Part shown: in pieces, positions 335 to 49,575 of the stretch | Numbering within the stretch: the first letter of the stretch is position 1 | Layout of the letters: each line of letters opens with the position of its first letter | Assembly (NCBI GenBank): GCA_020152595.1 | Contig: JAIGNY010002230.1 | Location: forward strand, 1,354,217-1,418,216 | Source of the DNA: Chiridota heheva | Lineage: Eukaryota > Echinodermata > Holothuroidea > Apodida > Chiridotidae | Length of the DNA stretch: 64,000 bases | Direction of reading: 5' to 3' | Translations under genes and position numbers: made by a program | The notes under the pieces: model-generated | What the model was told of the DNA's origin: nothing | The model's input: only the letters and a program-made list of their open reading frames with translations | Databases searched by the model: none

Positions 335-3300
335 GTAGGTATTTTGACATAACCTAAATCTGTGTTGATGAAGTTTTCAAAGATGTCTTAACTTTACCTG
401 AATAGAACTGCTAAAGGTCTAATTTGTGATATCATATCCTCACTTCCTTTAATTGTATTATATTGAAAAATTAATTCCTTCAAACTTTTTAGCATGGCTA
501 ATCATAGTTACGTTATGGCTCTTTATAATATCAGAAAATGTATCATTAAGACACACAAACTCATGTGGAAGATTGTAAGAATGTAAATTTGATTTCAATC
601 ATTTGTGCAATAATTGGATTAAACTTAAATTTACGGGAATATTCCTGTGAATTTTCATTTCCATATATATGATAGAGGACTAACAAACAAAGTCTATCTC
701 TTATGAAAAAGGACTTCAAAAGAAACAAAATTGTGAAGAAAGCATTCAAAATCTAACTCCGTTAAGGAGATATCTAAGTTTAAAGTTTGGTATCATTTGT
801 GTAGAAACGACTGAAATCAGACTAGTTGTGATGTCATAGTCTCAGATTCCTCAAAGTCTTTATGTATTCTATCATAATTTGTCCTGCGATTTTGTGGCTT
901 GAAATCATGGGATATGTCAAACAAGTAGTAAAATTGAATCTAGAAAGGGTATTTATAATATACCAACTGAAGAAAGTTTGAGGAAAAACTATTTAAATAG
1001 TGAAAAAATTCAATAAACTTTCTTTAAAATGCATTAAAAATTGTGAAGAATGTGAGGATGAATGCACAACTTTCCATAGTAAACTTACTACACCAGTCAT
1101 TCTACACAAATACTACAGAGCTTTCAAACTTGAATATCTCTTTAACGGAATAAGATTTTTGAATGCTTTCTATACCATTTTGTTTCTTTTGATGTCTTCT
1201 TTTATATAAGACAAACTTGCTTGACCACTGAAGTAATCCTATAATGTATTTCTTCATATTTCTTTCCCAAATTTAAAATATCAAAGGTTGTCAAATTGCA
1301 CACTATAACAAAATCTTTGTCAAGGTTAAAATAATATCCAATATCCTATTCACTATAACTAACTTATTCCATTCAAAAAATTTAGGGGATAAGACCGAAA
1401 AACAATAAATAAGTTAACACATTTTTTATTCTATGGTCACAAAATGTTGCACAATTTTAATACAATATTAATCAGGTATCATAGCTTTAAAATGTTGTAA
1501 AAAGGTCAATTTCTAACCAATTTTGATTCTCTCAGTGGGAATCAACTTAATCGTGTACTAGCTCAGTAGGGTTTTGCTAAGTTGAGGGAAACTTTATCAT
1601 TACAGTCAATGGGATGTTTTTTTATAAATACATGTGTCACCTTAGCCAGTCAGTGAAAATTAGTGGTATATACGTTGGAAACTTATCTAATACACAACAT
1701 ATCTGAAGAAAAATAAATTTTGTCCAGTATTTGTTTAAAAATGACAAAAAATATGTTTTTCTCCCATTGACTGCAATGATAAGTGACTGTTTGTTTTCCC
1801 CTTTGACTAAAGTTTGAGATCATCATAAAAGCATTGTTACGTCGCCGTGCACCACAACATTACGGATGTCCAACCTCGAGAATGGGACTTTTTGTTATAT
1901 TCATGGTTTTTAGTACATTTTAAGCTCCTGTCATTGCTACTTGTCCATGCATTACGCCCAATCCTCGCTACAAATTTGGGGGCTAGCATCAAAAACGTTA
2001 ACTTTGAAAATACAAAAACGTTTTAATGCATACCAACAGTTTTTCCAAGACTTTGCTTGCTTGCTTATAGTGACTGTGGAGGTAAGACCTTTGTGATGGC
2101 TTTCATACCCCTCTGTCCAGCATGTAGTTCTTGATTTCTTGCCCAAGGTGTTTGATATAGTCTTTTCTAGGCTGATCTCTTTTGATGCTTAGGCTGCCAC
2201 ATAAAAACTGAGGCAATTTCAAGACTGTAGTATTTGAGTTGACAAGGTTTTGTTGTTTCATAAAAAACATTAATAATTTTTGTCCCTTGGACCCCTCCAA
2301 CCTGACACCCTGATTTCCTAAAAATCAGGGTAATCGACACCTAACAACCCAAGAGTATCTTCACACTTCACTAGCTAGCAATCACCTATTGTTACACACT
2401 CTACACAATACAGGTGTAATCCACACTTTCTAGCCTGAGAGCTTCTCCACAGTTCACTTGCCAGCAACAAACTACTGTTACACCAAACACAATAGGTCAT
2501 TCATCTGAAGCTGAAGCCACATGCCTGCTTTGCAGTGAAGTGGAATAAGATTAGTCCTTGGCTGACTCTAAAAATAAATATGCGTTTATGCCTGGAGGAA
2601 TTTGTGCAATGCCCATGAATGATTGATGGACCATTCCTTCAAAAGATGGTATTTCATCATTAAAGTAGATTTTAATGCTGTTTCTGTTTTTTGTTTTGTT
2701 TAATTCTCAGAAAAGAGCAGAGTCGTTGATGGCTCAATACTATTCATATGTGATGTGGAAAGACGAACATTACTCCGAGACTGACTCAGTTTATTCCATT
2801 CTGGTGAGTGAAATTGTATTTATGATATTAAACAGTTTAACAGTTTAAAATTTTATTTACTTCTTTGATTATGACTCTGGCCTTTGTCAAAATAATACAT
2901 GCACAGTGTACAGAAAAACAAAGGTACAAATAAAAATATGAACAGAAATAATAACATTCTTCAACATATTAGTCTTCAACATTAACAATTTCTGCACGAT
3001 ATTTCAAATCATAAATTTAAAATAAAAACTTACTTAATTTATACAATAAAGACTTGTTTGTAGTATTAAACAAACTATTAGATTCATGGTGTGTTGGTGA
3101 ACAAAAGAAATACTGAGGTGAATAAAGTAGTACGTTGGTGAACAAAAGAAATACTGAGGTGAATGAAGCAGTACGTTGGTGAACAAAAGAAATACCGAGG
3201 TAAGTAAAGTAGTACGTTGGTGAACAAAAGAAATACCAAGGTGAATAAAGTAGCACATTGGTGAAGAAAAGAAATACCAAGGTAAATAAAGTAGTACGTT

Positions 3301-6300
3301 GGTGAACAAAAGAAATACCGAGGTGAATAAAGTAGTACGTTGGTGAACAAAAGAAATACCGAGGTAAATAAAGTAGTACGTTGGTGAACAAAAGAAATAC
3401 TGAGGTGAATAAAGTAGTACGTTGGTGAACAAAAGAAATACCGAGGTGAATAAAGTAGTGCGTTGATGAACAAAAGAAATACCGAGGTGAATAAAGTAGT
3501 ATGTTGGTGAACAAAAGAAATACTGAGGTAAATAAAGTAGTACATTGGTGAACAAAAGAAATACCGAGGTAAATAAAGTAGTATGTTGGTGAACAAAAGA
3601 AATACCGAGGTAAATAAAGTAGTATGTTGGTGAACAAAAGAAATACCGAGGTGGTGATTAAAGTAGTACGTTGGTGAACAAAAGGAATACCGAGGTGAAA
3701 AAAGTAGTACGTTGGTGAACAAAAGAAATACCGAGGTGAATAAAGTAGTACGTTGGTGAACAAAAGAAATACCGAGGTGAATAAAGTAGTACGTTGATGA
3801 ACAAAAGAAATACCGAGGTGAATAAAGTAGTACGTTGGTAAACAAAAGAATTACCGAGGTAAATAAAGTAGTACGTTGATGAACAAAAGAAATACAGAGG
3901 TAAATAAAGTAGTACGTTGATGAACGAAAGAAATACCGAGGTAAATAAAGTAGTACGTTGATGAACAAAAGAAATACTGAGGTGAATAAAGTAGTACGTT
4001 GGTGAACAAAAGAAATACAGAGGTGAATAAAGTAGTACGTTGGTGAACAAAAGAAATACCGAGGTAAATAAAGTAGTACGTTGGTGAACAAAAGAATACC
4101 GAGGTGAATGAAGTAGCACGTTGGTGAAGAAAAGAAATACTGAGGTAAATAAAGTAGTACGTTGGTGAACAAAAGAAATACGGAGGTGAATGAAGTAGTA
4201 CGTTGGTGAACAAAAGAAATACCGAGGTGAATAAAGTAGTTTGTTGGTGAACAAAAGAAATACCGAGGTAAATAAAGTAGTACGTTGGTGAACAAAAGAA
4301 ATACCAAGGTAAATAAAGTAGTACGTTGGTGAACAAAAGAAATACCGAGGTAAATAAAGTAGTACGTTGGTGAACAAAAGAAATACCAAGGTAAATAAAG
4401 TAGTACGCTGGTAAACAAAAGAAATACCGAGGTAAGTAAAGTAGTACGTTGGTGAACAAAAGAAATACCGAGGTAAATAAAGTAGTACGTTGGCGAACAA
4501 AAGAAATACCGAGGTAAATAAAGTAGTATGTTGGTGAAGAAAAGAAATACCGAGGTAAATAAAGTAGTACGTTGGTGAACAAAAGAAATACTGAGGTGAA
4601 TAAAGTAGTACGTTGGTGAACAAAAGAAATACCGAGGTGAATAAAGTAGTACGTTGGTGAACAAAAGATAAAGGTGAAAAAGAAATGAACAAAAGAAATA
4701 CTGAGGTGAATAAAGTAGTGAACAAAAGAAATACCAAGGTTGGTAAACAAAAGAAATACTGAGGTGAATAAAGTAGACGGAACTTCGTAATAAAAAGGAC
4801 ACTCTAACAAAAAGTGGAAATCATCCTCAATCATATGTAAATTACAAAGAGAGCACAATCGTTGGTCACGTGGTATATTAAATCTACGCTCTTTGTGAAT
4901 CTTCAGATTAAGACCACAACATTTAATTTTACTTAAGATCATACGGTGATACTAAGAATCAATGTGCGCTAAATAGAATTAATAATTGTTACTGGTTTTG
5001 TAGTTTCCATAAATATACAACTTTTCCATTGAATTTATATTAGTGGTCCACATTTGTTTATCAATATCATTTAATTTTGTAAAAATTACATAAAAACAGT
5101 TCATCATTGCTTGTATCCTTTTGCCGCCATATATCCTCGTAGCCTGAGCTATCTAAAATTGATTTAACATCCATTGAACAACAAACTTTATTGTTCTCAG
5201 CCATTTTTCTGATGGCCTCATAAAGATCATATCGTGTACATCTCCTTAAACATCATGCAGATATGCCCACTTTCCTCCTTGCTATGAAAACACATTTTAA
5301 ATACCAGCTGCACTTATGGTTCAGAGATTAATTGGTTCTGTAAACAATTTATCCACGCAATATTTGTATTTACTGTGCATAAGTGACATCAAAGGTCAAT
5401 GGTGGTCAATTGTTTTTTTACTGAACCGCCGAAAATGGCCAAAAACGGCGGTTGGGAAATAAAGGAGATGTACACAACATGATAGCTGTATACCGGTCGT
5501 TATTATGTTTTATGATACGCAACCAATATTTCACCTTTTTTGATGCATAGATAGAAATACGAGACCTATCCAACTCTCCCAAAGCAGTGGTACCATTAAG
5601 ACAGTGACATGGAAGGCTGAGCACATATTTACAAAATTTGTAGATAACTTGATCTATTTCATTATCAATACAATCACTACTTCCCCAAATATCAGAAGCA
5701 TAATGTAGGATCGGTTCAATTTTGACATCAAAAACATACATTTTAAGGTGCGGAGGAAGTCCTTTATAGATCAAGAAGCGCGTCAAACTAAAAATAGCTT
5801 TATTAGCTTCAAGTTGTTCTACTAAAGAGCACCTGGCATTGTACCATCATCCTTTTGTTTAAAGGAAACTTCCTGTGAATTTTCACTTTCATTTATATGA
5901 CAGAGGACAATTAAAGAAACAAATTAGTGGAAAAACCATGGTGATATCTTATTACATTTTAGGTTATTGATTGTTACGATGGAGTTTTAACCCCCAGTCC
6001 ACCCTAGCCCTCACCCCTCAAAGCTTTCCTCTGTTAGTCATTTTGAAGAAATGTTTGTTTGTAAGAAAAACTGGTGAGACATATGGATTGGTTGTAGCAG
6101 ACATGTAGACTTATTGTTTCGTTTAATTTTGTTTGCATAATTATTTACTGCAGACCATATAATTAGCACTAATAAGGGTGTTTCAGCTGACATCATGAGG
6201 TCACATGACTTTGTTTACATCGCCATATTGTCGGTCAAAAACACTGTCATCTGCTGTACACTTAATTAGACTTACATACGTTTGCATGTTGTTGAATAAG

Positions 6301-9300
6301 ATTATTTTTGTAAGATAATTATGCCGGAACCTTGCTGTGCTATTGGTTGCACTAATAAATGTGTGCGGGGGAATAAAAAGACATTTTCTCGGTTTTCAAC
6401 TGATCCTGATTGACGTTTGAAATGGGTTTCTGCTCTACGACGCGACGGCTTTCAACCTACAGCTCATATGATTTGCAGCAAGCACTTGTGGGCTTTGTCT
6501 GAGTATAACGAACAATTAGATGGTGTTAACGTTAAAGTTACTCTTCGTATACCCGGTGAGTATATAAAACTGAAGAAAAATATGAAGTAAAACTGAAAAC
6601 GAACAAAAAATTAGTAAGTAGTAAAAATTGCTGAACTGGTACTGGTATGTTAGCATGTAGTATGTTTGTTGTAGTGTGATGTGACTGGGCCGTGTGAAAA
6701 AACGCACCGCTGCTGCCCTGCAAAATGGAATCCAGTTGAGTTAGAACTCCTGATGAAATCCCTCTATACTGTATGTCAATGAAACAGATACCAAAGTCAT
6801 TTTAAGTTAAAATTTCAGCAACTTTAAAAACAACTTTTGCGAAGTCTTAGAAATAACTTGGAAGATTGTCTTAATTATATTTTGAAGTTTATATTGTTAC
6901 TTATTATTTGAATATTTCATTGAGTTTGTTTTGCATATTTGTTTTTCGTATCACTAGGATGGCTTGTACCGTTTTCTGGAGGAGCGTTTCATTTTGAAAG
7001 ATGTCACATTCCTGTGCATTCATGACTTTTTCTCTGCAATTATTGAATATTCAGTAGTGAATAAGGTATGTAAATTGATTCATTTCATTAACTTATGATT
7101 GCGACGACGACGACGAGTGAAAACACAATTACAATGACAGGGCCGTCACCTGCGTAATCGGTTATGATAGTAACAATGCTATCACGAAACGATTATTGAA
7201 TAATTCAGTCAAGTACAATACCCAACCCAGGTACCTCGTGGTCTGTAACATTGATTCACCACAGTAGGTAGATTATGAATGGTCACATATACCTAATAAA
7301 TACTAGCGGGAAATTTGGACCTTTCACTACTATATTTGCTTATATTTTACCATTTTTTTTTCTCCAGCATATTCAAATTTTCAGCCATATTTTGGTGGGA
7401 AATCTTGACGCGGTGACCTTTCGTTATCTGCTGCTCATCTGTGATTTGATTGACAGAGTAGATTGGAAGTTTGTGGAAGATTTCAAAGCGTTCATAACCA
7501 CAGTCTATTCATTTTTGAATGTAAGTAGTTTTGAAAAGTTTAAAATATTCTTGTACAATTTAACCAATGCTGCATTGATTTATTCTTCCCATTTTACATA
7601 TAGAACCTATAAGATTCCAACCTAACACTGTCCCCCTCGGAGATGAACTGCTTAGCCAAACCCATACCACAACACATGGAACAGTTCTAGATTTATCCTT
7701 TATTCATACTCCCCAGATCTTTCCTCACTCCTTGTAAATTAATTAAAACTCTTTATAATAACTCTCTCCCAAAGCTTTATATGTCATATCAACTACAACA
7801 ATATTAGTCTGAACCCCACCTCCCTCAACAACAGACTTCTCGATGTTCCTTTCATACAAATTCACCCTTAGTTTATTTAGTCCGTCATTAAATGCATTTG
7901 GTTTGCAAATGATGATCTTAAGCATCATCAATCATCTATGAATGAGAGTTGTGCATGATGGACAATGTGATCTTGACAAGCATCATCAATGATATTGCAC
8001 AGGGATATGAATGAGAGTTGTGGGGTGGTAGACTGATGGATGAGTTAGGGTGACAAGGAAGGTGTAGGTCAATGGAGAGGATGGGTGAAGGCTAGAAGTA
8101 GTGAGGTACACTCGGTCCGGAAGATGATATGTGCACAGGGATAGTGAATGTATTTGGGTTGGTATATTGGGGAGAGTATGTGTATTGGGGTGGAAGACTG
8201 AGTGTCATGACTGAGTTAGATGGATAGGTGACAAGGAAGGTGTAGGTGGATGGAGAGGATGCGTGAAGGCTAGGAGTAGTGGGGTACACTAGTTACGGAG
8301 GGTGATATGTGTACAGGGATAGTGAGTGTATTTGGGTTGGTATAATGGGGATAATGTGTATTGGGGTGGTAGACTGAGTGTCATGACTGACTTAGATGGA
8401 TAGGTGACAAGGAAAGTGTAGGTGGATGGAGAGGATAGGTTAAGGCTAGGAGTAGTGGGGTACACTAGGTCTGGAGGATGATATGTGCACAGGGATAGTG
8501 AATGTATTTGGGTTGGTATAGGAATAGTATGTGTATTGGGGTGGTAGACTGAGGTGGATGGATAGGTGACAAGGGGATGGGATGGAGAGGGTGAAGGGAG
8601 TAGTGGGGTACACTAGGTCCAGAGGATGATATGTGCACAGGGATAGTGAATGTATTTGGGTTGGTATAATGGGGAGAGTATGTGTATTGGGGTGGTAGAC
8701 TGAGTGTCATGACTGAGTTAGATGGATAGGTGACAAGGATAGTGTAGGTGGATGGAGAAGATGGGTTAAGGCTAGGAGTAGTGGAGTACACTGGGTCTGG
8801 AGGATGATATGTGCACAGGGATAGTGAATGTATTTGGGTTGGTATGATGGGGAGAGTATGTGTATTGGGGTGGTAGACTGAGTGTCATGACTGAGTTAGA
8901 TGGATAGGTGACAAGGATAGTGTAGGTGGATGGAGAAGATGGGTTAAGGCTAGGAGTAGTGGAGTACACTGGGTCTGGAGGATGATATGTGTACAGGGAT
9001 AGTGAATGTATTTGGGTTGGTATAATGGGGAGAGTATGTGTATTGGGGTGGTAGACTGAGTGTCATGACTGAGTTAGATGGATAGGTGACAAGGAAAGTG
9101 TAGGTGGGTGGAGAGGATAGGTGAAGGCTAGGAGTAGTGGGTAGTCCGGAGGATGATATGTGCACAGGTATAGTGAGTGTATGTTGGTATAATGGGCATA
9201 GTATGTGTATTGGGGTGGTAGGTAGATTGGAGTGGTAGGTAGATTGGAGTGGTAGGTAGATTGGAGTGGTAGGTGGATTGGAGTGGTTGGTGGATTGGAG

Positions 9301-12300
9301 TGGTAGGTGGATTGGAGTGGTAGATGGATTGGAGTGGTAGATGGATTGGAGTTGTAGATGGATTGGGGTGGTAGGTGGATTGGAGTGGTAGGTGGATTGG
9401 GGTGGTAGGTGGATTGGGGTGGTACTTGAATAAAGGATAGTAGATTAAAGGGGTATGCTAGGTTGATAGAGGTGAGTGGGTTGGACATGGTATTTGTTTT
9501 GGGAGAAAACATGGATGATGGTGGGCCGGTGGATGGATAAGGAGTAGGAAGATTGGGATAGGATTGACAGAGTATTTTGTTGGCATAAGATGAGGGGATG
9601 GGTGTTGAAGGAAGAATCTTGGGTAGAAGATAACATGATGATTGTTAGATGGAATTGAGATTAGGGTATGATGGCATGTGGGACAGAGGGTGGGGTGATA
9701 TGTGGGACAGGGTGGTATGGCATGTGAGAGAGGGTGGTATGGCATCTGGATTTCAGTTGTTATTTATTGTAGTATATAGAGTGGGAGGGCATGTGGGAGA
9801 GAGGGCGGAAGGTGGTTTATCGGCAGCGAACAGATTTGTATCGTTGGTGATGTCTATTTTGTTTCTGGGAAGTATTCACATGTGATTACAAAAACAACTT
9901 TTCACACTTTTATTATAAGAGTTGTCCATAGAGATTTGAGTTAATTTCAGAGCTCTTAAACTGAACAAGTAAGAGGGGGGTTAAAAAAATGGGTGTTCTC
10001 AACAACCACCTACTTTATAAAATGTTCTTCCCACTCATCTTTACTCTTTTATTTGCACCAACCATTTTGTATTTTCTTTTGCATTATGTTACTCTTTAAT
10101 TAAGATAACTTCTTTTGCACAATTGACCTCTCTGCTGTTAATCACCACCAATCCAGTGGTGTGTCTAAGAGCTTAGCCCCCTTAATAAAAGCCATCAATA
10201 TGATTAAGTGAAATGCAAATGAATAGTAGAAAACAGAGATGTTGGCCTTTTTTGTATGGACTGAATTATTGGCACATTTGACTCTTGACTGTCACGGTGC
10301 AGTTACACCATCATCAAACCTGAATTATCATTAATTCTAAACCAAAACTCTCCCAGTTTGCACCCAAATCCTCAATATTGAAGCACATTAAGTCTAAACT
10401 TCGCAATACATTTTGTGTCTTAAGCCCTGACAAAATCTAAAATCTGTTGGGGTCTATATTGCTCACAACAGAAACCACAATCCAGCACAAGCAATCAGCA
10501 ATTACACCAGGAATTTCCACATACTTCACCTCACTTTCCATGGTCATAATCTGACATTGACAAATTTCACTGCAGCTGCACTGACTTTAACACCCACACA
10601 AGGACAAAAGTATTCCCCTGTAGTCAAAGTGTCTGGCTTGAAGTAATAATTCACAAATAGGGTGGTATTTAACAGTGAAGGTATTATTTGTTTATTGATG
10701 AGTGATTTCAAGTGATGCTTTTGTTCAGTCTTGTAGGCTTTCAGGATTTTGGACTCAAAATCCATTGCGACAGATTTTCATCATGCAAAATCTTCAATAT
10801 TGGACCAAAAATTATGAACCAAAGTTCTTAATATGTACAATTTGGGGCCAAAAATCTTTAAGTTTTGGACCAAAATCTAGAACTTAGAACCAAATATGGA
10901 CCACAATCTGAAGGTGAACATTTTAATCCCCCAAAAAAGCGAAAAGCTAGACTTGCCACTGAACCAAACCCAGCTCATATTCTACTTATGAAATGTTATA
11001 AAATGTAATTGATATAGGCCACCCGTGACATTCCATTATTTTTTGGTACCAAAATCAAGCAAATTCCAACTATTTACATTTGATCATGAACAAATCTGAA
11101 ATTTGGGATGAAAATACCGGTCCAAAATTATATTGACTCTTATTTAGTCATTTATTAATTAATTATGTCAATGAATTTGATAGAGGCTTCAAACAAATGG
11201 CTGTTTGAAGTCTAACATGGCTTTCAGAAAAGCTTCAGATTTCCCCCAATTTTGCACTCAAGGAAGAAAGTTTCTGATTTTTGTTGTTGTTGCATGGAAT
11301 GGATTGCTAACGAAAAAATTTTTATCTTGTGTATTTTTAGGGGATTTTTTTAAAAGAGGGGATTTTGAAAAAGGTGACAAAAAGATGAATATGTATGTTT
11401 CATGAAAAATGGAATCCACCCATTTATCCTGCCATTTTTAAGTGTTTCATAACTTGAGAGTTTTGAATAAGAGACAAAATTTGAGGTTTTCCTATGCAGC
11501 TTAACACTAATGACCCCCATATGGTTGCCATTTCAAGTGTAACCTATCAAACTCACCTTCTTCTTCTTCATCTTCTTCTTCTTCTTCTGTTAGAGTACAG
11601 TCCTCCAATTGGATTATGAACAACGCACTGTGAACTAAATGCGTTCTCAGTGCGAGTTAAAATTGTGTAGTCTATGTACATGGTGCAAGTAAAAGAGAAA
11701 GGCCACCTAAGGCCGAAAGTGGATGTCTGGTACAACCTTTTTGAAACATTCAAATGATGAGCTTTGTACCAGATAAAGAGGTAAGCCATTCCATAGCCTG
11801 ATGGTGTCTGGGAAAAAAGAGTGCTTGTAAGTCTGGGTCCTGGAGAAGATGAGTGCGACCCCTTGCGGTTGATGTTATTGGTTGGAGATAGGTGGTACAG
11901 TAGGTATGGCAACAATGTCATGGACTATCCTGTACATCAGTATTGCTTTACAGCGGGCTCTTCTTTCTGCTAGAGATTGAAGCATTGGTGTGACACTGCT
12001 GTATTATTTTCTTTGATTTTTTTTTCTCAGGAGGATGATATTGATCAGATCCACCTGGCGTACACCTCGTTCAGCGAGAACAAGATCTCCAAGGCCCTCG
12101 TCAATGAATACTTCATGTACATCATACTCAAATCCAGGGAACCAAGATTCCAAGACGTAAGTATAAATGCACTGGGCCAAAATAGTTTCCGATTTTCTTT
12201 CACCAAAATCTTGGCTCTGTATGTAGGAACTAATTCTTATAAATATTATAGAGCAAGTTGTCTCTCATAAAAAGTCACATTTTTGGTATTTTTTTGTGAA

Positions 12301-15300: not shown

Positions 15301-18300
15301 CAGAAGCCACAATCCAGCACAAGCAATTACATCAGGTATTCACACACACTTCACCTCATTTCACCTCCATGGTCATAATCTGACATTGATAGTAAACAAA
15401 TTTCACTGCAGCTGCACTGACTTTCACACTCAACACAAGGACAAACGTATTCCCCTGTGGTCAATGTGTCTGGCTTGAAATAATAATTTATAAATAAAAT
15501 GGTATTTAACAGTAAAGGTTTTGTTTGTTTATTGATGAGTGATTTTAAGTGATGTTTTTGTTCAACCTTGTAGGCTTTGAGAATTTTGGACTGAAAATCC
15601 ATTGCAACAGATTTTCATCATCTTGTTAAATACTGGTATCTATATGCGACTTAATGAAGGACCAACTGTGAAATCTGTTGTACTGTCCATAGACTATTAA
15701 TTGTGAAAGAAATTGTCTTGGATCTACCAACTCCACGTCATCCAACCCACAATTTCGATTAAATCCACCATCAACAACCTCTCTCGTATCGACAACGTTC
15801 ATATTACCCGTCTTAGAATTGGTCACACCCACCTCACTCACTCCTACCTCCTTACTGGTTCCCCCAACCCCTCTGTAACAATTGCCATTGCACCCTCACA
15901 ATCCATCACGTTCTCCTTGCTTTCCCCCTATACAACCTTCCCAGAGCTTCCCTTGCTCCCCACAAGTTAATTGCTGAGCTCTTCCAGAAAAATCCTTTCG
16001 GATAAAATTATCTCCTTCCTCTATCATGCCTCCCACTACAATTATATTTAGTTCTCCTCCTCCACCCCCTCTCTACTTTGTTTTGATTTCAACCATGCAC
16101 CTCCCCTCTCAATCACAGCTTTCTGACCTTTTGTTCTTGAATTTCTCTCATTTTCCCCGTTTCCTTTCCTTTCTAGAATGATCTGACCTCTCAGGCACAA
16201 TTTGACCCTCGTTGTCATGGTGTTGTAAGCTCTCATCAAACATTCATTACATCAAACTGGACACTGTGAGGTCACATTGGTAAAAAAATTTTAAATGCAA
16301 AAAGTCCTGAACGGGACAAGATACCAACATGGTTTTTATACCAAGCTGTTTTTTTAATAGTCCCCTATCATATTTATGTTATTTTAACAGGAATATTTCT
16401 TTAAATTACATTAAAGTTTTGTTAAATTGTTGATTTTAAAATAGCAAGTATTTAATGTCTCAGATCAACAGGTTCAGTGCTACGTTAGGAATCCCTTTAC
16501 AAAGCACAGGTATTTTGATCTTGATTGACATAACGCACACAATGCGTTATCCTTTTTTAGCGCAGTAAGTCACGAATTGAGCACAGGTGAATAGAGTCTG
16601 CTATGCACACAATGCGTTATCGTTTTTTATAGCAGTAAGTCACGAATTGAGCATGGTGAATAGAGTCTGCTGGGCTAGAAGCTCAGTGATTTTAGCGCGA
16701 TAATCCACATTTAGCATTGAGCAGCTCCATTCATCACGGCGCTAAGTACACTAATTGCCTCGCTCTTAGTACATACGCTTATTACCGACTGTACTGTATT
16801 TCCTTGATTGATTTCATCAGAAATTGCTGGGTATCTCCTGCTCTCTCAGATGGCGCCGTTGCTCCGACAAAAAATTGCGGATGATGTAGAGGACAGCAGA
16901 CTTAGGCCTGGAAGTCATAAAACAAGTAAGTGTTTTGAGTTGATAATAAGTTTTGGGTTCTTTTCATATCTATATCTCATCACCCACATATACATGTGGG
17001 GATGAGATATTGTAGTCACTTTGCTGTATAGGCAAATAAATGCCTATATTCTCCTATACTACATTGCCACCCCCCTTGATATTAGGGGGTTGGTGGGCCC
17101 ACCAGCCCATCATATGATGACCTCATATTAAGGGTTAGGGTCATGATTTTTTTGGAACGGGACAAAATTTGGTGATTTTTGCATCAGTCTGTGTGTGTGT
17201 GTGTGTATGCAACAATTAATATTATGTCGCTTATAACTCAAAAACTGTAATACACATACAAACCAAAATTGGTGGACGGGTGCCTCTGGCCTGGAACTCC
17301 AACTTGAGGTTTTGGGGTACAAAGGTCACAGGTCAAATAAAAAAAGTTTTGTGATGGCTGTATCTTTTGAAGGAATTACTTGGTATCTTTACAAATTGCA
17401 TAGTTTAACATTTAACAAAAATCAAAAATAATTGGGGTCCAAATGTCAAAAAAGTACAGTACTTTTTATGCAAAATTTTGTGCCATTTTAAACTCAAAAA
17501 GTACAATACGATGATATGTTGGTACATGAATTTGTGTTCCGTAGACTCTTGGGTCAAAAAGTCAAAGATCACAGAGCTATGGACCACTTTTACCATTTTC
17601 CCTTATAGTTATGGAATGGTAAGTGTGACAAGAGCATGAATGGTGTCATGCAGTAGGCAGCAGTATGGTATGATAAATGTGAAAAATTTCAGAATTTGTT
17701 TGAGTGATTAGGGTCAATCTTTAAAAATATTCTGAATGTAAACTGGCTGCAAATAAAGTGAAGAAACTAAACAAGCCTTTCTAAAAACAAACATCTTATG
17801 TCAGTTCCATATGCAAATTTGTACTACAATTGTGTGCATTAAGGATAATAAGGATATCATTGACCAAAATTGACCGCCACATAGTCAAATTGTAAATATA
17901 CTCTGATATTTTTGGCAAGTTTTTGAGAGAAAAAATGAAAATTACTCATGTTTTTTGGTCATAAATTACTCTGAAAATTTCAATATGATTCCAATGAAAT
18001 ATTTTTAGAATATGAGACAAGCCAAGGAATTCTTTCAAACGATACAAAAATCACCCTGGTGAAATGGGGAAGTCCCTTAAGACTTTTTTTCTAAATATAG
18101 CACACTCCAAACGACTCTTGCACCAAGAAGGATCTTAAAGGGTATAAGGAAGGCCTTCTTACCCTTTCCGCAAAAGCTCAGAAATGAGTGCATTTGGCTG
18201 TTCTAGTAAATTCTAGTAAAAGTAAACAAATTGTACGCTACAACGTTTAAAGGTTAAGCAGCGATTACTCAAATAATGGACTAAGCTTCTCAGATGCGGT

Positions 18301-21007: not shown

Positions 21008-21540
21008 TCTAAAGGAATATTCCTGTAATGATTAAAGAAACAATTTGGTGTAAAAATCATGTTGTCTTTTTTCCATTTAGGATTTCAAAGATTGCGAGTG
21101 TGTTAAAAAGTGACCTCGCAGTGTAAAATGTGATGTCATAAAGGCAGATCCAAGACAATTCTTATGTATTTCTATAAAACAAGATAATTTTTTCATTTTA
21201 CTTTGAGTGTAAGGTTCAAGAGCAGATGGGCAAAGCATGTTCTTATAAAGTGTATGTTATACCTCATCTCAACAAACAAACAAAAAATGTTTCTGTAATT
21301 TAGGAAGAGCAATTAAATTTCAAAGAAATACACAACAATTGTCTTAGGTTTTCCTTTATGACATCACACTGTACATTGTGAGGTCACTTTTCAACACACT
21401 CACACAATTTTTGAAATGCAATAAGTCCTAAATGGAAAAAGATATCAACACGATTTTTACACTAAATTGTTTCTTTAAAGTCCCCTATCATATACAGTAA
21501 ATGAAAATTCACGGGAATATTCCTTTCAGACTGCTTTGTT
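21008..21540. mobile_element. Foldback element, family B, complete inverted repeat
   Basis: Left arm 21010-21185 and right arm 21320-21540 are inverted copies: GGAATATTCCTGTAATG...TAAAGAAACAATTTGGTG against ACTAAATTGTTTCTTTAAAG...CACGGGAATATTCC. Inner parts also pair (AAGTGACCTCGCAGTGTA against ACATTGTGAGGTCACTTTT). No coding capacity. Confidence 0.8.
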
Positions 21541-27337: not shown

Positions 27338-29462
27338 ACATGGTGGTGCACGATGCCCGCCCGCCCCGATGGTGGGTGCACGATGGCCGCCCGCCCCGAT
27401 GGTGGTGCACGATGGCAGCGCCCGCCCCGATGGTGATGCCACGCATGGCCGCCCGCCCCCGATGGTGGTGCACCCATGGCCGCCCTCCCGATAGTGGTGC
27501 ATGCATGGCCGGCCGCCCGCCCCGATGGTAGTACACGCATGGCCGCCGCCCCTGATGGTGATACATGATGGCATGCCCGCCTGAACCCGATGGGGGGCAC
27601 GCATGCCCACCCACCTCCGATGTGGGCCGGGGCATGCATGCCCGCCAATTTCCGATGAAATTTCCGAGCGCCCATCCCCAATGGGGGGAGGCATGCATGC
27701 TCGCACGCCTCCTGATGGAAAAGAGGCATGCGCCCACGCCCCTGATGGGGCAGTGACTACGCCCGCCGCCCCCGGGTGGGGGGGTGGGTATGGCCCGCCC
27801 ACCGCCCTCGGGTGGGGGTGCTGGCCCACCGCGCCCGGGTGGGGGGTACTGGCCCGCCCGCCTCCCCCGGGTGATGGGTACTGGCCCGCCCGCCTCCCCC
27901 GGGTGAGGGGTACTGGCCCGCCCGCCACCTCCGGGTGGGGGTACTGGCCCGCCCGCCGGCCCCGGTGGGGTGTACTGCCCGCCCGCCAGCCCCGGGTGGG
28001 GTACGGGCCCGCCCGCCCTCGCCCCCGCCCCGGTGGGGGTGTACTGGCCCGCCCCCCGGCCCCGGTGGGGTGTACTGGCGCCGGCCCGGGGTGGGTGGTA
28101 CTGGCCCGCCCGCCGCCCCGGGTGGGTGGTACTGGCCCGCCCGCCCGCCCCGGTCGGGGTACTGGCCCGCCCGCCGCCCCGGGTCGGGGGGTACTGGCCC
28201 GGGACGGCGGGGGTTCTGGGCCCTCCCTCCGCCGTCCCCGGGTTCTCCGCCGCCGCAGGTGGGCCTCCCCTCCGCCGTCCCCCGGGTTCTGGGCCCTCCC
28301 TCCGTCCCCGGGTTCTGGGCCCTCCCTCCGCCGCCCCCGGGTTCTGGGACCTCCCTCCGCCGTCCCCGGGTTCTGGGCCCTCCCTCCGCCGTCCCCGGGT
28401 TCTGGGCCCTCCCTCCGCCGTCCCCGGGTGGTCGGCCCTCCCTCCGCCGTCCCCGGGTGGTCGGCCCTCCCTCCGCCGTCCCCGGGTGGTCGGCCCTCCC
28501 TCCGCCGCCCCCGGGTGGTCGGCCCTCCCTCCGCCGTCCCCGGGTGGTCGGCCCTCCCTCCGCCGCCCCCGGGTGGTCGGCGCCCCTCCCTCCGCCGTCG
28601 GCGGGTGGTCGGCCCCTCCCCTCCGCCGTCCCGGGTGGTCGGGCCCCCTCCTCCCCCGTCCCGGGTGGTCGGCCCTCCCTCCCGCCGTCCCCGGGTGGTC
28701 GGGCCTCCCTCCGCCGCCGTCCCGGGTGGTCGGGGCCCCTCCCTCCGCCGTCCCGGGTGGTCGGGGCCCTCCTCGCCCGTCCCGGGTGGTGGGCCCCGGT
28801 GGTCGGCCCTCCCTCCGCCGCCCTCCGGTGGTCGGCCCCCCTGCGCCCCCCGGGTGGTCGGCCCTCCCTCCGCGCCGCCCCGGTGGTCGGCCCGGGTGGT
28901 CGGCGCCTCCTCCGCGCCGGGCGGTGGTCGGCGGTGGTCGGCGCCTCCCGCCGCCCCGGTGGTCGGGCGCCCTCCTCCCCGGTGGTCCGCCCCGTCGGCG
29001 GGGTGGTCGGCGCCCCCTCCCTCCGCCGCCCCCGGGTGGTCGGGGCCCTCCCTCCGCCGCCCCGGTGGTCCGGCCCTCCCTCCGCCGCCCCGGGTGGTCG
29101 GCCCTCCTCCGCGTGGTCGGGTGGTCGGTGGCCCTCCTCCGCCGCCCGGTGGTCGGCCCTCCCTCCGCCTCCCCGGGTGGTCGGGCCCCCTCCCTCCGCC
29201 TGCCCGGGTGGTCGCGCCCCTCGGTGGTCGGGCCCTCCGCCGCCGGTGGTCGGCCCCCTCCGCCTCCCGGTGGTCGGGCCCCTCCCTCCGCCGCCCCGGG
29301 TGGTCGCGCCCTCCTCCGCCCCGGGTGGTCCGCCTCCCTCCCTCCGCCCCCGGGGTGGTCCGGCGCCTCCCCGCCGCCTCCGGGTGGCCGCCCGCCCTCC
29401 GCCGCCCTCCCTCCGCCGCCTCCTCCTCCCGCCCCAGGTGGTCGGCCCCCCTCCGCCAACCC
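27338..29462. repeat. Extremely GC-rich stepped minisatellite (29-33 bp units)
   Basis: The block is about 2.1 kb. Sub-array 1 (27338-27760) has GATGGTGGTGCACGATGGCC-type units. Sub-array 2 (27760-28205) has GGGTGGGGGGTACTGGCCCG-type units of about 32 bp. Sub-array 3 (28205-28430) has GGGTTCTGGGCCCTCCCTCC units of 29 bp. Sub-array 4 (28430-29462) has GGGTGGTCGGCCCTCCCTCC units of 29 bp (28455 and 28484). Units degrade by small indels toward the right end. Frames of over 500 codons are open on both strands, but composition is Pro/Gly/Arg/Ser only and frames overlap completely, so none is called as a gene. Confidence 0.9.
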
Positions 29463-35984: not shown

Positions 35985-36965
35985 TTTGCTGCATATGTTT
36001 AAAAGAAAACCATCTGCTGCATATCTTCAAAAGAAAACCATCTGCTGCATATGTTCAAAAGAAAACCATCTGCTGCATATGTTCAAAAGAAAACCATCTG
36101 CTGCATATGTTCAAAAGAAAACCATCTGCTGCATATGTTCAAAAGAAAACCATCTGCTGCATATGTTCAAAAGATAACCATCTGCTGCATATGTTCAAAA
36201 GAAAACCATCTGCTGCATATGTTCAAAAGAAAACCATCTGCTGCATATGTTCAAAAGAAAACCATCTGCTGCATATGTTCAAAAGATAAACATCTGCTGC
36301 ATATGTTCAAAAGATAAGCATCTGCTGCATATGTTCAAAAGAAAACCATCTGCTGCATATGTTCAAAATAAAACCATCTGCTGCATATGTTCAAAAGAAA
36401 ACCATCTGCTGCATATGTTCAAAAGAAAACCATCTGCTGCATATGTTCAAAAGAAAACCATCTGCTGCATATGTTCAAAAGAAAACCATCTGCTGCATAT
36501 GTTCAAAAGAAAACCATCTGCTGCATATGTTCAAAAGAAAACCATCTGCTGCATATGTTCAAAAGATAAACATCTGCTGCATATGTTCAAAAGATAAACA
36601 TCTGCTGCATATGTTCAAAAGAAAACCATCTGCTGCATATGTTCAGAAGAAAACCATTTGCTGCATATGTTCAAAAGAAAACCATTTGCTGCATATGTTC
36701 AAAAGAAAACCATTTGCTGCATATGTTCAAAAGAAAACCATTTGCTGCATATGTTCAAAAGAAAACCATCTGCTGCATATGTTCAAAAAATGACCATCTG
36801 CTGCATATGTTCAAAAAATGACCATCTGCTGCATATGTTCAAAAAATGACCATCTGCTGCATATGTTCAAAAAATGACCATCTGCTGCATATGTTCAAAA
36901 AATGACCATCTGCTGCATATGTTCAAAAAATGACCATCTGCTGCATATGTTCAAAAGAAAACCAT
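35985..36965. repeat. 28-bp tandem repeat, about 35 copies
   Basis: The unit TCTGCTGCATATGTTCAAAA plus GAAAACCA repeats with period 28. Variants are clustered: GATAAACA/GATAAGCA near 36290-36330 and 36560-36600, TTTGCTGC at 36655-36745, and an AAATGACC block at 36785-36945. Open frames (MFKRKPSAAYVQKKTICC) arise from the repeat. There are no spacers, so it is not a CRISPR array. Confidence 0.95.
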
Positions 36966-41869: not shown

Positions 41870-42842
41870 CCAGCCAATTATAAAAATGGCATCCCACATG
41901 GTATCCCATGTCCAACATGGCATCACATGTCCCACATGGCATCCCATGTCCCACATGACATCCCATCTCCCACATGGCATTCCACTATATCTCCCACATG
42001 GCATCCCACCCCTTGTCCCACATGACATCTCATCCCTTGTCCCACATGGCATCCCACCATATGTCCCACATTGCATCCCATCTTATGACCCACATGGCAT
42101 ACCACCCTATTTCCCACATGGATCTCATCCTATGTGCCAAATGACATCCCATCCCATGCCTTGTCCCACATGGCATTCTATCATGAATGCCATGTGAGAC
42201 ATACTGTAGTATGTCTCACATGGCATTTCACCATATGTCCCACATGGCATTCCACCATATGTCCCACATGGCATTCCACCATACATGTATGTCCTACATT
42301 GCATCCCATCCTATAACCCACATGGCATACCACCCTATGTCCCACATGGATCCCATCCCATGTGCCAAATGACATCCCATCCCATGCCTTGTCCCACATG
42401 GCATTCCACCATGAATGCCATGTGAGACATACTGTAGTATGTCTCACATGACATTTCACCATATGTCCCACATGGCATTCCACCATATGTCCCACATGGC
42501 ATTTCACCATATCTCCCACATGGCATTCCACCATATGTGCCACATGGCATTCCATCATGTCCCACATGGCATTCCACCATATGTCCCACATGGCATTCCA
42601 CCCTATGTCCCACATGGCATCAAACCCTATGTCCCACATGGCATCGAACCCTATGACCCACATGACATCCCACCTTATGTCCCACATGGATCCCATCCAT
42701 GTGCCAAATGACATCCCACCCCATGCCTTGTCCCACATGGCATTCCACCATATCTCCCACATGGCATTCCTTCATACGGTATGTCTTACATAGCATTCCA
42801 CCATATCTCCCACATGGCATTCCACCATATGTCCCACATTGA
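41870..42842. repeat. 24-bp CCCACATGGCATTCCACCATATGT array 1, with higher-order repeat of about 230 bp
   Basis: Degenerate 24-bp units fill the interval. Larger blocks (TGTGCCAAATGACATCCCAT ... CCTTGTCCCACATGGCATTC) recur at about 42135, 42363 and 42695. A hairpin TGCCATGTGAGACATAC/GTATGTCTCACATGGCA is present at 42188-42226 and 42417-42456. Frames such as MSHMAFHH are artefacts. Confidence 0.9.
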
Positions 42843-43154
42843 GTGTCTCTGAGAAACTTTCTTGTAAGGATATCTACAGAAACTAACTTTTCCTGAGGAA
42901 CTCTGAAGTAACTATTAACATTTTCTGAGGAATTCTCAAAAAAAAGTAACATTTCTGAGAAATCAGGAAAAACTGTGGACGGCCAGATGGACAAAATCTG
43001 TCATGCGAACCAATAAAATGAACCTGCAAGCGCCATTTAACATTCAAAGCGCAAACAGTATTGTTGTTTAGTGGTTCCAATGCATCTTTTCATTGTGCGT
43101 TGATTTTCAAGTTTTATACTAACTGGCATTGCATATTATGAAATATGCTAAATA
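42843..43154. other. Non-repeat spacer
   Basis: Contains TTTCTGAGGAATTCTC-type phrases repeated three times (42890-42965). No gene was seen. Confidence 0.4.
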
Positions 43155-43566
43155 ACATGATAAAAATCTGTTGCAACATTTAATTTTCAGTCCAAAACCC
43201 TCAAAGCCTACAAGGTTGAACAAAAACATCACCTAAAATCACTCATCAATAAACAAACAAAACCTTTACTGTTAAATACTATCCTATTTGTGAATTATTA
43301 CTTCAAGCCAGACACATTGACCACAGGGGGAATACTTTTGTCCTTGTGTTGAGTGTGAAAGTCAGTGCAGCTGCAGTTAAATCTGTTTACTATCAATGTC
43401 AGATTATGACCATGGAAAGTGAGGAAAAGTGTGTGGAAATCCCTGGTTTAGTTGCTAGTTGCTTGTGCTAGATTGTGGTTTCTGTTGTGAGCAATATAGA
43501 CCCAACAGATTTTAGATTTTGTCAGGGCTTAATTTGACACAAAATGTATTGTGAGGTTTAGACGTA
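43155..43566. repeat. Dispersed repeat R1, copy 3 (reverse orientation)
   Basis: The plus strand here encodes FQSKTLKAYKVEQKHHLKSL, then INKQTKPLLLNTILFVNYYF, before a frameshift at GGGGGAATAC. It abuts repeat R2 at 43567. Confidence 0.7.
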
Positions 43567-45200
43567 ATGCATATATTCATAAGCCATGCCCGCCATGCAT
43601 ATCAATAACGTGAACTTGACAACATTACAAGTATGATGCAAAGCATGCATATGGATGGTTGCACATTAATAACTGTTTGAAGAATTTTACATAATGCCCC
43701 CACCGACATCACTACCAACACAATAGGTCACATACCAGCATACGGACCATACAGTAACTCATCTGTGTAGGCCTACAACATATGATATGTTTGTGATGTG
43801 TTTACAAGTTTTTTGAAACATTTTCACATTAAGGCATGCATATTAGTGATAGAACCTGTTGTCAACATAAGCATGTACACAATAACTGTGTACTACATAC
43901 AAGATGACATGAATGCAGCTTATCATTCTTGAGATACCGTGTTTACAAGATCTTTTGCATCAAAATCATATTAGGCCCCACCCACTATGCATATTAATCA
44001 GATTTAAAATTTTAAACCATGAATACATACACAGTTAGTTAACATCGTAATTATGCTAAATATGAAACAAAATGGACATGCGGTTGTTAAAAAAATGAGC
44101 ATTTGAAGATTTTTACATTAAGCCTGCCCACTCATTAATATGCGTGACATCATCACCAAAAACAATAGGGCACATCTGTAGACTATGTACCATATGTACC
44201 ATATATGACATAAAGACAATGTGTTGTCTGGAGATTTTGTGTAGACGAGCTATATTTAGCAAAATCACATTCAGTCCCGCCCACTACACATATTAATGTG
44301 ATTCAATTTTTTTACACAATAAGCATGTGGACACTAACTAACAACATTACTATGCCAAATATGAAAGAAAATGGACAAGCGGTTGTTGAAATATGAACAT
44401 TTCTGCATTTTTACATTAAGCCTCGCCCACTGATTAATATGCATGACATCATCACCCAAATTTCTAGGGCACATCTGTGGACTACCTGTGTACCAAATAT
44501 GACATAAATCAATTGTCATTCTAAAGATTTCGTGTTTACAAGGACAAGCTTTATTTGGCAAAGCCACATTAGGCCCCACTCACTACGCATATTAATGAGA
44601 TTCAATTATTCTACACCATGAGCATGTGGACAATAGCTAACAACGTTGTTATACCAATATGAAACAAAATGGACAAGCCGTTAAAATATGAACATTTCTG
44701 CATTTTTACACTCAGTAATATGCATGACATCATTACCAAAATTGATAGGGCACATCTGCGGACCATGGGCTACCTGTGTACCACATATGACATAAATCCA
44801 ATGTGTTGTACTAGAGCCCCCCGCCCACTACATATATTAATGAGATTCAACGTTTTTATACCATGAGCATGTGGACACTAGCTAACAACATTATTATACC
44901 AAATATGAAACAAAATGGACAAACGGTTGTTGAAATATGAGCATTAAAAAAATTACATTAAGCCCCGCTCACTCATTAATATGCATAACAACATACAAAA
45001 CGATAGGGCACATCTTTGGATCATGGGCCATCTGTGTACCACATATGACATGAATCCAATGCACGCTCTTGAGATATCATGTTTACAAGGTAGACGTAAC
45101 ATACACACATACACACACACACACACCCACATACGTGGTTCACAGACTGATCGAGGACCTTGGCATCAAACTATCCATTTGAGAACTCAATGATACACAG
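43567..45200 (-). repeat. Dispersed repeat R2, reverse orientation, about 5 units
   Basis: CATTAATATGCATGACATCATCACC-type motifs lie near 44135, 44437, 44713 and 44975, spaced about 270-300 bp. Each is followed by ATAGGGCACATCTGTGGAC and a CATGTTTACAAG motif. (CA)n and GACTGATCGAGGACCTTGG at 45100-45170 match the leader of the + copy at 13250. Confidence 0.8.
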
Positions 45201-45587
45201 ACCAATAATAAAGTAGTGGAGCTGAAATAATTGTTGTTTTATCACTGTTAATTGCTTGTAGGGTATGGGAACTTGAAAAGTAAACAAAAATACAGTTCCT
45301 GATTTATATTATCTTTTTAAGGTCATAAAACAAAATTTTAGGTTTAGTTAAACTAAGGACCCTGGACAAGATCTAATACATCTATTCATCTAAGGACTTC
45401 TGTGTGTTACATAATTTTCAGTTTTACTAAACAAGTAAGGACTTACGGCGAATCAGCAGGTAACTGTGTTAAGAATTTGTGGCGTAATCCATTTAAAAAA
45501 CTAGAACGATAATACCGTCATGGTTTGCATGCCCATGCAAATTGACACCCATATCAAATGACCTGGCCAATTATAAAAATGGCATCT
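45201..45587. other. Spacer and shared left flank of the 24-bp arrays
   Basis: 45497-45587 resembles 41818-41890: CTAGAA, then GTCATGG, GCATGCCCATGCAAAT and GGCCAATTATAAAAATGGCATC precede both arrays. Confidence 0.55.
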
Positions 45588-46194
45588 CACACTTAAGTCC
45601 CACATGGCTTCCCACCCCATGTCCCACATGGCATCCCACCCCATGTCCCACATGGCATTCCACCATATGTCTCATATGGCATTCCACCATATGTCCCACA
45701 TGGTATCCCACCATATGACCCACATGGCATCCCACTCTACTGTATGTCCCACATGGATCTCATCCTATATGTATATCCCATCCCATGTGCCAAATGACAT
45801 CCCACTCCATGTTCCATGTTATGTGGGATGTCCCATCCCATGCCTTGTCCCACATGGCATTCCACAATATCTCCCACACAGGGCATTCCACCATACAGTA
45901 TGTCTCACATGGCATTCAACCATATGTTTCACATGGCATTCCACCATATGTCCCACATGGCATCCCACCCTATGACCCACATGGCATCCCTCCATGTGTC
46001 CCAGATGGCATCCCTCCGTGTCCCACATGGCATCTCTTCCTATGTCCCCCATGGCATCCCACCATATGTCCCGCATCATTGGCTTCCCACCATATATCCC
46101 ACATCAGTGGCTTCCCACCACATGTCCCACATCATTGGCTTCCCACCATATATCCCACATCAGTGGCTTTCCACCATATGTCCCCCATCAGTGG
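45588..46194. repeat. 24-bp array 2
   Basis: Same unit family as 41870-42842, ending in a sub-array where CAGTGGCTTCCCACCATATGT replaces the usual unit (46075-46194). Confidence 0.9.
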
Positions 46195-46537
46195 AAGACC
46201 CCTAGTTTTGCTGTTTTACAGGGGCGGCATGTCCTGCCCCTCCATGGGCCCGCCCTGCACCCTGGGGGTCCGCCCTGCCCACCCGAGACCAGCCCTGCCC
46301 CTCATGAGAAAACAAAATAGATTTTTGTTTTTAGATTATAAAAAAAAAACCTTAATAATCTTAATTAACCTCATAAATAAATACAGAACACAGAATGATA
46401 GCATAGTAAGCAATTGTCATGTTTGTAAAGGGGACCCTGGACTCCATGCCGAAAAGACGCAGTGCTTCGCGCATCCATTAATGTGTCCCTCAACAAGTCT
46501 AGCACCCTGCCCCTATTTAAATCAAGCCAGGGGCATG
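46195..46537. mobile_element. 343-bp insertion R4 interrupting the 24-bp array
   Basis: It starts AAGACCCCTAGTTTTGCT and ends CAAGCCAGGGGCATG. AGTGG flanks both sides (46190-46194 and 46538-46542), and joining them restores the array phrase CAGTGG|CTTCCCACC seen intact nearby. A relative at 54554-54976 has cleaner inverted ends (AGACCCCTAG / CTAAGGGGTCT). No ORF. Confidence 0.75.
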
Positions 46538-47640
46538 AGTGGCTTCCCACCTGATGTCCAACATGGCATCCCACCATATGTCCCACATTGGATCCTACCA
46601 TAGGTTCCACATGGTATCCTTCCCAATGTCCCAATGACATCTGACTTTATGTCCCACATGGCATCACATATCATGTCCCCATGGCCTTCTACCCTATGCC
46701 CCACATAACCTTCTACCCTATGTCCCACATGGATCCCATCCCATGTGCCAAATGACATCCCACCCCATGTCCCACATGGCATTCCACCATATCTCCCACA
46801 TGGCATTCCACCATACACTGTCTCACATGATATTCTACCATATGTCCCACATGCCATTCCACCAATATCCCACATGGCATCCAACCCTATGACCCACATG
46901 GCATCCCACCCTATGTCCCACATAGATCCCATCCCATGTGCCAAATGACATCCCACCCCATGCCCCATGTCATGTGGGACGTCCCATCCCATGCCTTGTC
47001 CCACATGACATTCCACCATATCTCCCACATGGCATTCCAAAATATCTCCCACATGGCATTCCACCATATCTCCCACATGGCATCCTACCATATCTCCCAC
47101 ATGGCATTTCACCATAAAGTATGTCTCACATGGCATTCCAACATATGTCCCACATGGCATTCCACCATATGTCCCACATGGCATCCCACCCTATGACCAA
47201 CATGGCATCTTACCATATGTCCCACATGGATCCCATCCTACATGTCCCACAATAATTCAACCGAATGTACCAGATGACATCCCTTCCTATGTCCCACATG
47301 CCATCCCTTCCTGTGACCCACATGGCATCTCCCCCTATATCCCCCATGGCATCCCACAATATGTCCCGCATCAGTGGCTTCCCACCATATGTCCCGCATC
47401 AGTGGCTTCTCACCATATGTCCCGGATCAGTGGCTTCCCACCATATGTCCCGCATCAGTGGCTTCCCACCTGATGTCCCACATGGCATCCCACCATATGT
47501 TCCACATTAGATCCTACCATATGTTCCACATGGTATCCTTTCCAATGTCCTAATAACATCCTACTTCATGTCCCACATGGCATCACATCTCATGTCCCCA
47601 TGGCCTCCTACCCTATGTCCCACATAGCCTCCTACCCCAT
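46538..47640. repeat. 24-bp array 3 (continuation of array 2)
   Basis: It resumes the same units on the right of the insertion, with TGTGCCAAATGACATCCCAC higher-order blocks at 46745 and 46938 and a second CAGTGGCTTCCCACC sub-array at 47385-47475. Confidence 0.9.
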
Positions 47641-47642
47641 GT

Positions 47643-48539: not shown

Positions 48540-49575
48540 AAGGGGTTGGAATAAGTTGTAATAAAAGAGTGGGAATAAGAGAGGGCAGGGAGTAAGAGAG
48601 GGCAGGGAGTAAGAGAGGGCAGGGAGTAAGAGAGGGCAGGGAGTAAGAGAGGGCAGGGAATAAGAGAGGGGCAGGATGTAAGAGAGGGCAGGGAGTAAGA
48701 AAGGGGCAGGGAGTAAGAGAGGGGCAGGGAGTAAGAGAGGGGCAGGGAGTAAAGGGGCAGGGAGTGAGAGAGGGGCAGGGAGTAAGAGAAGGGCAGGAAG
48801 TAAGAGAAGGGCAAGAGTAAGAGAGGGGCAGGAGTAAGAGAGGGGCAGGAGTAAAGAGGGGCAGGGAGTAAGAGAGGGGTAGGGAGTACGAGAAGGGTAA
48901 GGAGTGAGAGAGGGGCAGGGAGTAAGAGAGGGCAGGGAGTAAGAGAGGGGCAGGAAGTAAGAGAGGGCAGGGAGTAAGAGAGGGCAGGGAGTAAAAGAGG
49001 GCAGGGAGTAAGAGAGGGCAGGGAGTAAGAGGGGCAGGGAGTAAGAGAGGAGCAGGGAGTAAGAGAGGGGCAGGGAGTAAAGAGGGGCAGGGAGTAAGAG
49101 AGGGGCAGGGAGTAAGAGAGGGGCAGGAGTAAGATAGGGGCAGGGAGTAAAAGAGGGGGGCAGGGAGGGAGTGAGAGAGGGGCAGGGAGTAAGAGAAGGG
49201 CAGGAAGTAAGAGAAGGGCAGGAGTAAAAGAGGGGCAGGAGTAAGAGAGCGGCAGGGAGTAAGAGAGGGGTAGGGAGTGGGAGAGGGGCAGGGAGTAAGA
49301 AAGGGCAGGGAGTAAGAGTGGGGCAGAGAGTAAGAAAGGGTAGGGAGTAAGAGAGGGCAGGGAGTAAGAGAGGGGCAGAGAGTAAGAAAGGGCAGGGAGT
49401 AAGAGAGGGCAGGGAGTAAGAGAGGGGCAGGGAGTAAGAGAGGGGCAGGGAGTAAGAGAGGGGCAGAGAGTAATAGAGGGGCAGGGAGTAAGAGAGGGAC
49501 AGGGAGTAAGAAAGGGACAGGGAGTAATAGAGGGGCAGGGAGTAATGGAGGGGCCGGGAGTAAGAGAGGGGCAGC
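48540..49575. repeat. 17-18 bp GA-rich minisatellite, about 57 copies
   Basis: Units AGAGGGGCAGGGAGTA and AGAGGGCAGGGAGTA alternate with a 17-18 bp period and occasional 12-16 bp units. The plus strand is almost all G and A. Open frames (YSLPLSYSLP) on the minus strand are artefacts. Confidence 0.95.

Follow-up and report, generated by a model that had tools for sequence, protein, structure and literature searches.

In a 64-kb stretch of the Chiridota heheva genome (contig JAIGNY010002230.1, positions 1,354,217 to 1,418,216, hereafter the window, with positions counted from its first base), a 41-bp minisatellite lies on the minus strand between two segments of coding sequence that resemble the C-terminal part of a long interspersed nuclear element (LINE). 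The best reading of this arrangement, and one that we consider likely, is that a single segment of the LINE was amplified in place. An earlier sequence-only reading of the window had proposed the same origin, chiefly from the continuity of the LINE's reading frame through the array. That conclusion stands as the best one available; the frame argument, as described below, turns out to be weak, and the junctions between the repeat units and at the edges of the array carry the case instead.

The array and its junctions

Tandem Repeats Finder (TRF) reported 38.4 copies of the 41-bp unit at 3093-4668 on the minus strand (93% matches, score 2649) and irregular copies with a 33-bp period at 4672-4776 (70% matches), for a total of about 40-41 units. 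Overall the unit occupies 3093-4776, as 38.4 regular copies plus about two irregular ones at the edge facing the 5′ side of the LINE, where TRF, cyclic alignment and direct reading all show that about 108 bp consists of rearranged copies. The sequence-only reading had described a 41-bp array of about 41 units, in agreement with these results, and its translation of the minus-strand unit, LLYSPRYFFCSPT, is correct. Our cyclic alignment to the unit spans 4719-3093 in 41 rows, the first of which is a single base. The 37 complete units in rows 4-40 (with a 3-nt insertion in one unit excluded) have a mean pairwise identity of 93.0%, and 27 of the 37 are distinct. Among 40 units, the most frequent variants are found at column 11, where 21 have C and 19 have T, and at another column, where 28 have G and 8 have A. 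Adjacent units are barely more similar than distant ones (lag-1 identity, permutation P 0.12), so recent local spreading is not strongly indicated, and we dropped an argument based on homogenization between neighbors. The array is known from one locus within the window: elsewhere in the 64 kb, the unit finds only 10 distinct matches, 10-14 nt long, with a best E value of 0.35.

Inside the array, the spacing of the units is constant: each 38-nt core leads to the next through exactly 3 nt at 37 junctions, the linker being GTA in 29 of them, ATA in 4, GTG in 2, and AAA and GCA in one each. (These were found by searching from the core end CACCAAC to the core start CTACTT; the search gave 38 matches, the zero-length one being a second match on the AAA junction, core start 4239.) At both outer edges, where a core meets LINE sequence, the full 3-nt linker is missing. 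On the left, LINE sequence ending in GTTCCGT is followed by the first core (4739-4776), and on the right, the last core (3093-3130) is followed by ACACCATG and then the LINE. A 3-nt spacing that holds throughout the array and is incomplete at its edges would be expected if a single founding duplication was followed by amplification, and these junctions are the best support for birth in place. The same contrast between the interior and the two ends makes the founding junction readable. An imported array would produce such junctions only if its breakpoints had chanced on the core edges on both sides.

The series of events that we favor would begin with a CR1/L2-like LINE copy that inserted antisense into an intron of a host gene and then decayed. 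Within its C-terminal coding sequence, just past a zinc-knuckle-like motif, 38 nt (or those 38 nt plus the preceding GT) would have been duplicated head to tail, the founding duplication leaving 3 nt between the copies and so giving the 41-bp period. From two copies, unequal exchange or replication slippage could then have carried the array to about 40, with the two outermost copies retaining the original LINE junctions. This two-step scheme supposes that the core was already present at this place in the single-copy ancestor. When the array is collapsed to one copy, an arginine, an aromatic pair and a proline fall at the distances that we take to be usual in the tails of such LINEs; we regard this as a lead rather than a test.

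The reading frames contribute much less. The LINE frame had been said to enter the unit after CPFYYEV, but that frame reads on as PSTLFTSVFLLFTN rather than as LLYSPRYFF: the V codon of FYYEV is separated from the core by 4 nt (4777-4780), so that the two frames differ by one base. At the right edge, the described exit, YFFCSPT-HHESNSLFNTTNK, is indeed in frame, although this is nearly uninformative because the unit is open in all frames. For the consensus unit, the claim that no minus frame contains a stop holds in all three; in the actual array, a single minus frame stays open from end to end (3084-4820, 578 aa), whereas each of the other two is cut once, near 3658 and near 3850, leaving open reading frames (ORFs) of 366 and 277 aa and of 381 and 207 aa. 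Such openness is weak evidence rather than a striking property: when the unit's own bases were shuffled, 14,182 of 100,000 shuffles (14%) were open in all three frames, and we therefore dropped three-frame openness as proof of a coding origin. Any ORF next to a unit that is open in all frames will appear to continue through it, so continuity is no proof of descent from that ORF. Such a unit also yields long false ORFs that gene finders may call.

The surrounding LINE-like copy

Most likely, the array lies within a decayed, 5′-truncated LINE-like copy on the minus strand, antisense in an intron. LINE-like coding sequence in the same orientation is found on both sides: upstream, it ends in KIHKERRFNIPRDQRLCSLCNLHMIEDDFHFLLECPFYYEV at 4781, and downstream, it continues as HHESNSLFNTTNKSLLYKLSKFLF and then a stop. 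The upstream segment includes a zinc-knuckle-like motif, for which Pfam zf-RVT gave E 0.053 (14.6 bits) when the 366-aa ORF was used and E 0.0046 (18 bits) when a 44-aa piece was cut to the segment; both are below the curated cut-off of 27.5 bits. Farther upstream, we take an open segment (5484-5846) to be part of the LINE C-terminal region; in Pfam it matched only Caveolin (E 0.0072; 16.7 bits against a cut-off of 25) and DUF3606 (E 0.13), in both cases below cut-off. None of the LINE pieces scanned with Pfam matched a reverse transcriptase (RT) core, and only the C-terminal part of a LINE is present. CR1/L2-like LINEs encode an RT and a C-terminal zinc-knuckle domain, and end in short octamer-like repeats instead of poly(A). 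The two TAAACTGT octamers at the 3′ end would suit such an element, and we assign the copy, tentatively, to the CR1/L2-like class.

This LINE copy is dead. It has two stops in 4781-5098, a stop after KFLF, an upstream frame change and an insertion at 5226-5483. The insertion is 258 bp long, with 22-nt arms that are 91% complementary and 214 nt between them, and resembles a small terminal inverted repeat (TIR) element; apart from the stretch and its arms, a blastn search with it against the window found just one 14-nt match. Adjoining the 5′ end of the truncated LINE is a dispersed repeat, 5858-5969, which is 73-81% identical to 21419-21526, 50132-50232, 630-691 and 16318-16405, among other matches. 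Table 1 lists the features of the LINE-like copy and the array.

Table 1. Parts of the LINE-like copy and its array, in order of window position
Positions	Strand	Feature	Basis
2820..3019	-	LINE 3′ remainder: possible further codons, 3′ untranslated region, two TAAACTGT octamers near the terminus; boundary approximate	direct reading
3020..3092	-	C-terminal LINE coding sequence that follows the array (HHESNSLFNTTNKSLLYKLSKFLF) and runs to a stop	direct reading
3093..4668	-	Regular 41-bp array, 38.4 copies, consensus CTACTTTATTYACCTCGGTATTTCTTTTGTTCACCAACGTA	TRF, cyclic alignment, consensus
4669..4776	-	Irregular array edge toward the 5′ end of the LINE: a 38-nt core (4739-4776) adjoining the flank, followed by shortened copies	TRF; core read directly
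4777..4780	-	Junction on the left: 4 nt separating FYYEV (V codon) from the first core; frame offset of one base	read directly
4781..5098	-	LINE-like coding segment, decayed (two in-frame stops), containing a zf-RVT-like motif (IPRDQRLCSLCN...EDDFHFLLECPFYYEV)	direct reading; Pfam zf-RVT below cut-off
5226..5483	.	Insertion that interrupts the LINE copy, bounded by inverted repeats of 22 nt (91%)	repeat analysis
5484..5846	-	Open segment farther upstream (WYNARCSLVEQL...NDRYTAIM), taken as LINE C-terminal region	ORF translation; Pfam matches below cut-off

Searches for relatives of this LINE found none in the collections covered. A similarity search of viral contigs turned up 16 pattern stretches for one LINE piece and 19 for another, and none was confirmed. 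Degenerate patterns for an EDE.HF..CP-like motif had no matches in viral contigs and 2 in prokaryote genome contigs, and wider patterns gave 12 and 2 matches. The 16 loci matched by these patterns were translated around the match, in the match frame, and judged by eye not to be LINEs; one that looked LINE-like at first (L015) was dropped because the opposite strand has an open frame across the match, and another (L016) was rejected solely for its many stops. Using tblastn, a 40-aa LINE piece found nothing in plasmids and the 44-aa piece nothing in phages, and the latter's five rows against the PDB (E 1.3 or worse) included no LINE. Neither of two LINE pieces matched NCBIfam, and a literature search for six peptide words from the LINE tail found none. 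Within the window, tblastn with the LINE pieces gave only self matches and rows with E 0.054 or worse.

Other origins and the host intron

Several points weigh against amplification in place. With a single core in place of the array, the frames of the two flanks would differ by one base, an offset that is plausible in a copy that already contains stops and a frame change, yet is not predicted by a clean origin. The CGT of the left flank aligns to the interior CGTA minus one base, such that the absence of a linker there hangs on one base; the linker's GT may have been derived from this CGT. There are signs that the edge units retained older bases, with A at column 17 (hypergeometric P 0.0014) and C at column 11 (P 0.035). 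We gave these little weight, and dropped the arguments from both columns, since the columns were chosen post hoc and the column 17 test omitted a partial edge copy that carries G. The assignment of the flanks to a LINE rests on the below-cut-off zf-RVT matches and on general resemblance to such elements, and the viral, prokaryote, phage and plasmid collections searched yielded no relative that would support the presence of the core in the parent, as is to be expected for an animal-like LINE.

The offset also bears on whether a minisatellite born elsewhere, or from filler unrelated to the LINE, could have been inserted into the LINE or replaced part of it, leaving LLYSPRYFF to be read through by accident. 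This origin appears unlikely to us. In its favor, the left frame is one base off, apparent coding continuity is cheap (as the shuffled units demonstrate), and the window is rich in other arrays, but the edge cores run straight into LINE sequence, and there is no second locus for the unit in the window. Moreover, comparing the 30 nt outside one array edge with the 30 nt outside the other gave no common direct repeat of 5 nt or longer, so a target-site duplication of the usual type is absent. In LINE tails, about this number of residues lies between the CP.Y motif and a downstream hydrophobic segment, which again speaks against an import. Distinctly unlikely, in our estimation, is that the array already existed in an active LINE lineage and was carried into the intron by retrotransposition, as the variable number of tandem repeats (VNTR) region of SVA elements is carried. 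The 578-aa open frame means that such repeats need not halt translation, and the array may be older than the insertion; however, neither the LINE pieces nor the array has a second copy within the window, and such an insertion would change the C-terminus of the enzyme. It is highly improbable that an active LINE lineage has a variable-number repeat in its C-terminal coding region. The number of units could vary without introducing a stop inside the array, because the 41-bp unit is stop-free in every forward frame, and if such a lineage did exist, the active LINE would encode a tail of variable length, and the array would travel with it as a mobile minisatellite.

Read by eye, exons of a plus-strand gene flank the array at 2711-2803 and 6958-7065, which would place the LINE antisense in an intron. 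Together with 254-334, 7368-7520 and 12031-12156, also read by eye, these are apparently exons of one gene. Their translations, joined by eye, gave a weak Pfam match to RST (E 0.00044, 20.5 bits, cut-off 22.7) and nothing better than E 0.15 in the PDB. On the plus strand, in the sense of the host gene, the array (3093-4776) contains 33 copies of AATAAA and 32 of GAGGTRAAT; its minus strand contains none. That the array was kept for host RNA processing, with most units offering a polyadenylation hexamer and a donor-like site in the host's sense, nonetheless seems to us scarcely credible. By our reading of the exons, the array does lie in an intron of the plus-strand gene, 500 single-base shuffles of it averaged only 6.7 AATAAA (maximum 13), and all 32 GAGGTRAAT on the plus strand of the window fall within it. 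These counts, however, amount to one motif multiplied by the number of repeats, and both motifs follow from the antisense sequence of the LINE; looser donor-like sites (at least 7 of 9 positions) are common elsewhere, with 260 outside the array and 42 inside. We assign no function to these motifs and propose none for the array.

Tandem arrays, from a TRF list merged by hand, make up about 12.5 of the 64 kb of the window, and ten of them are at least 500 bp long. Examples include 8597-9424, 28258-29457, 35987-36965, 41886-42839, 45579-47642 and 48571-49574. Over nearly 6 kb at 41886-47642, three blocks hold several arrays that are built on a related 24-bp unit (TCCCACATGGCAT...CACCATATG) and show longer periods.

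Relation to known repeats

From its probable location inside a transposable element (TE) copy, we think that the array is a TE-derived minisatellite. With a 41-bp unit in 38.4 copies, it falls within the definition of a minisatellite given in PMC3389668 (head-to-tail units of more than 10 and less than 100 bp). According to that study, at least 7,276 arrays, 23% of the human minisatellites and satellites surveyed, are TE-derived and grew by local duplication. Like ours, they have short units within a TE copy, but the human set was filtered for units longer than 20 bp, GC content of at least 40% and unit identity of at least 95%, whereas the array described here is AT-rich and 93% identical.

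Tandem repeats that contain LINE coding sequence are also in print. PMC9659126 describes satellites derived from LINE ORF2, PROsat in Phodopus roborovskii and Pvc 20 in Phoca vitulina, as well as the chicken HinfI repeat with a partial CR1 ORF2. In these, as here, the tandem monomer contains LINE coding sequence; they are satellite DNAs, however, whereas ours is one 41-bp minisatellite, at one locus, that is still inside its LINE copy. The plant satellites of PMC7004042 likewise show that tandem repeats from retrotransposons are a source of satellite DNA, although those were studied as long arrays in nanopore reads. The VNTR of SVA and LAVA elements (PMC7353768) resembles our array in being a tandem repeat carried in a non-LTR (long terminal repeat) element, but it belongs to a mobile family, and only one copy is known here. 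The CR1 fragment described in PMC8392823 is reported as non-tandem.

The sequence-only reading had judged that the birth of a satellite inside a retroelement ORF is rarely this readable. The example is legible, but its kind is ordinary, TE-derived minisatellites being abundant in the published work cited above (PMC3389668, PMC9659126). The birth of repeat arrays in this way is well known, with LINE-ORF examples in print, and the C. heheva array is probably a readable new instance: a legible case of how a minisatellite starts, adding one example to a large published class.

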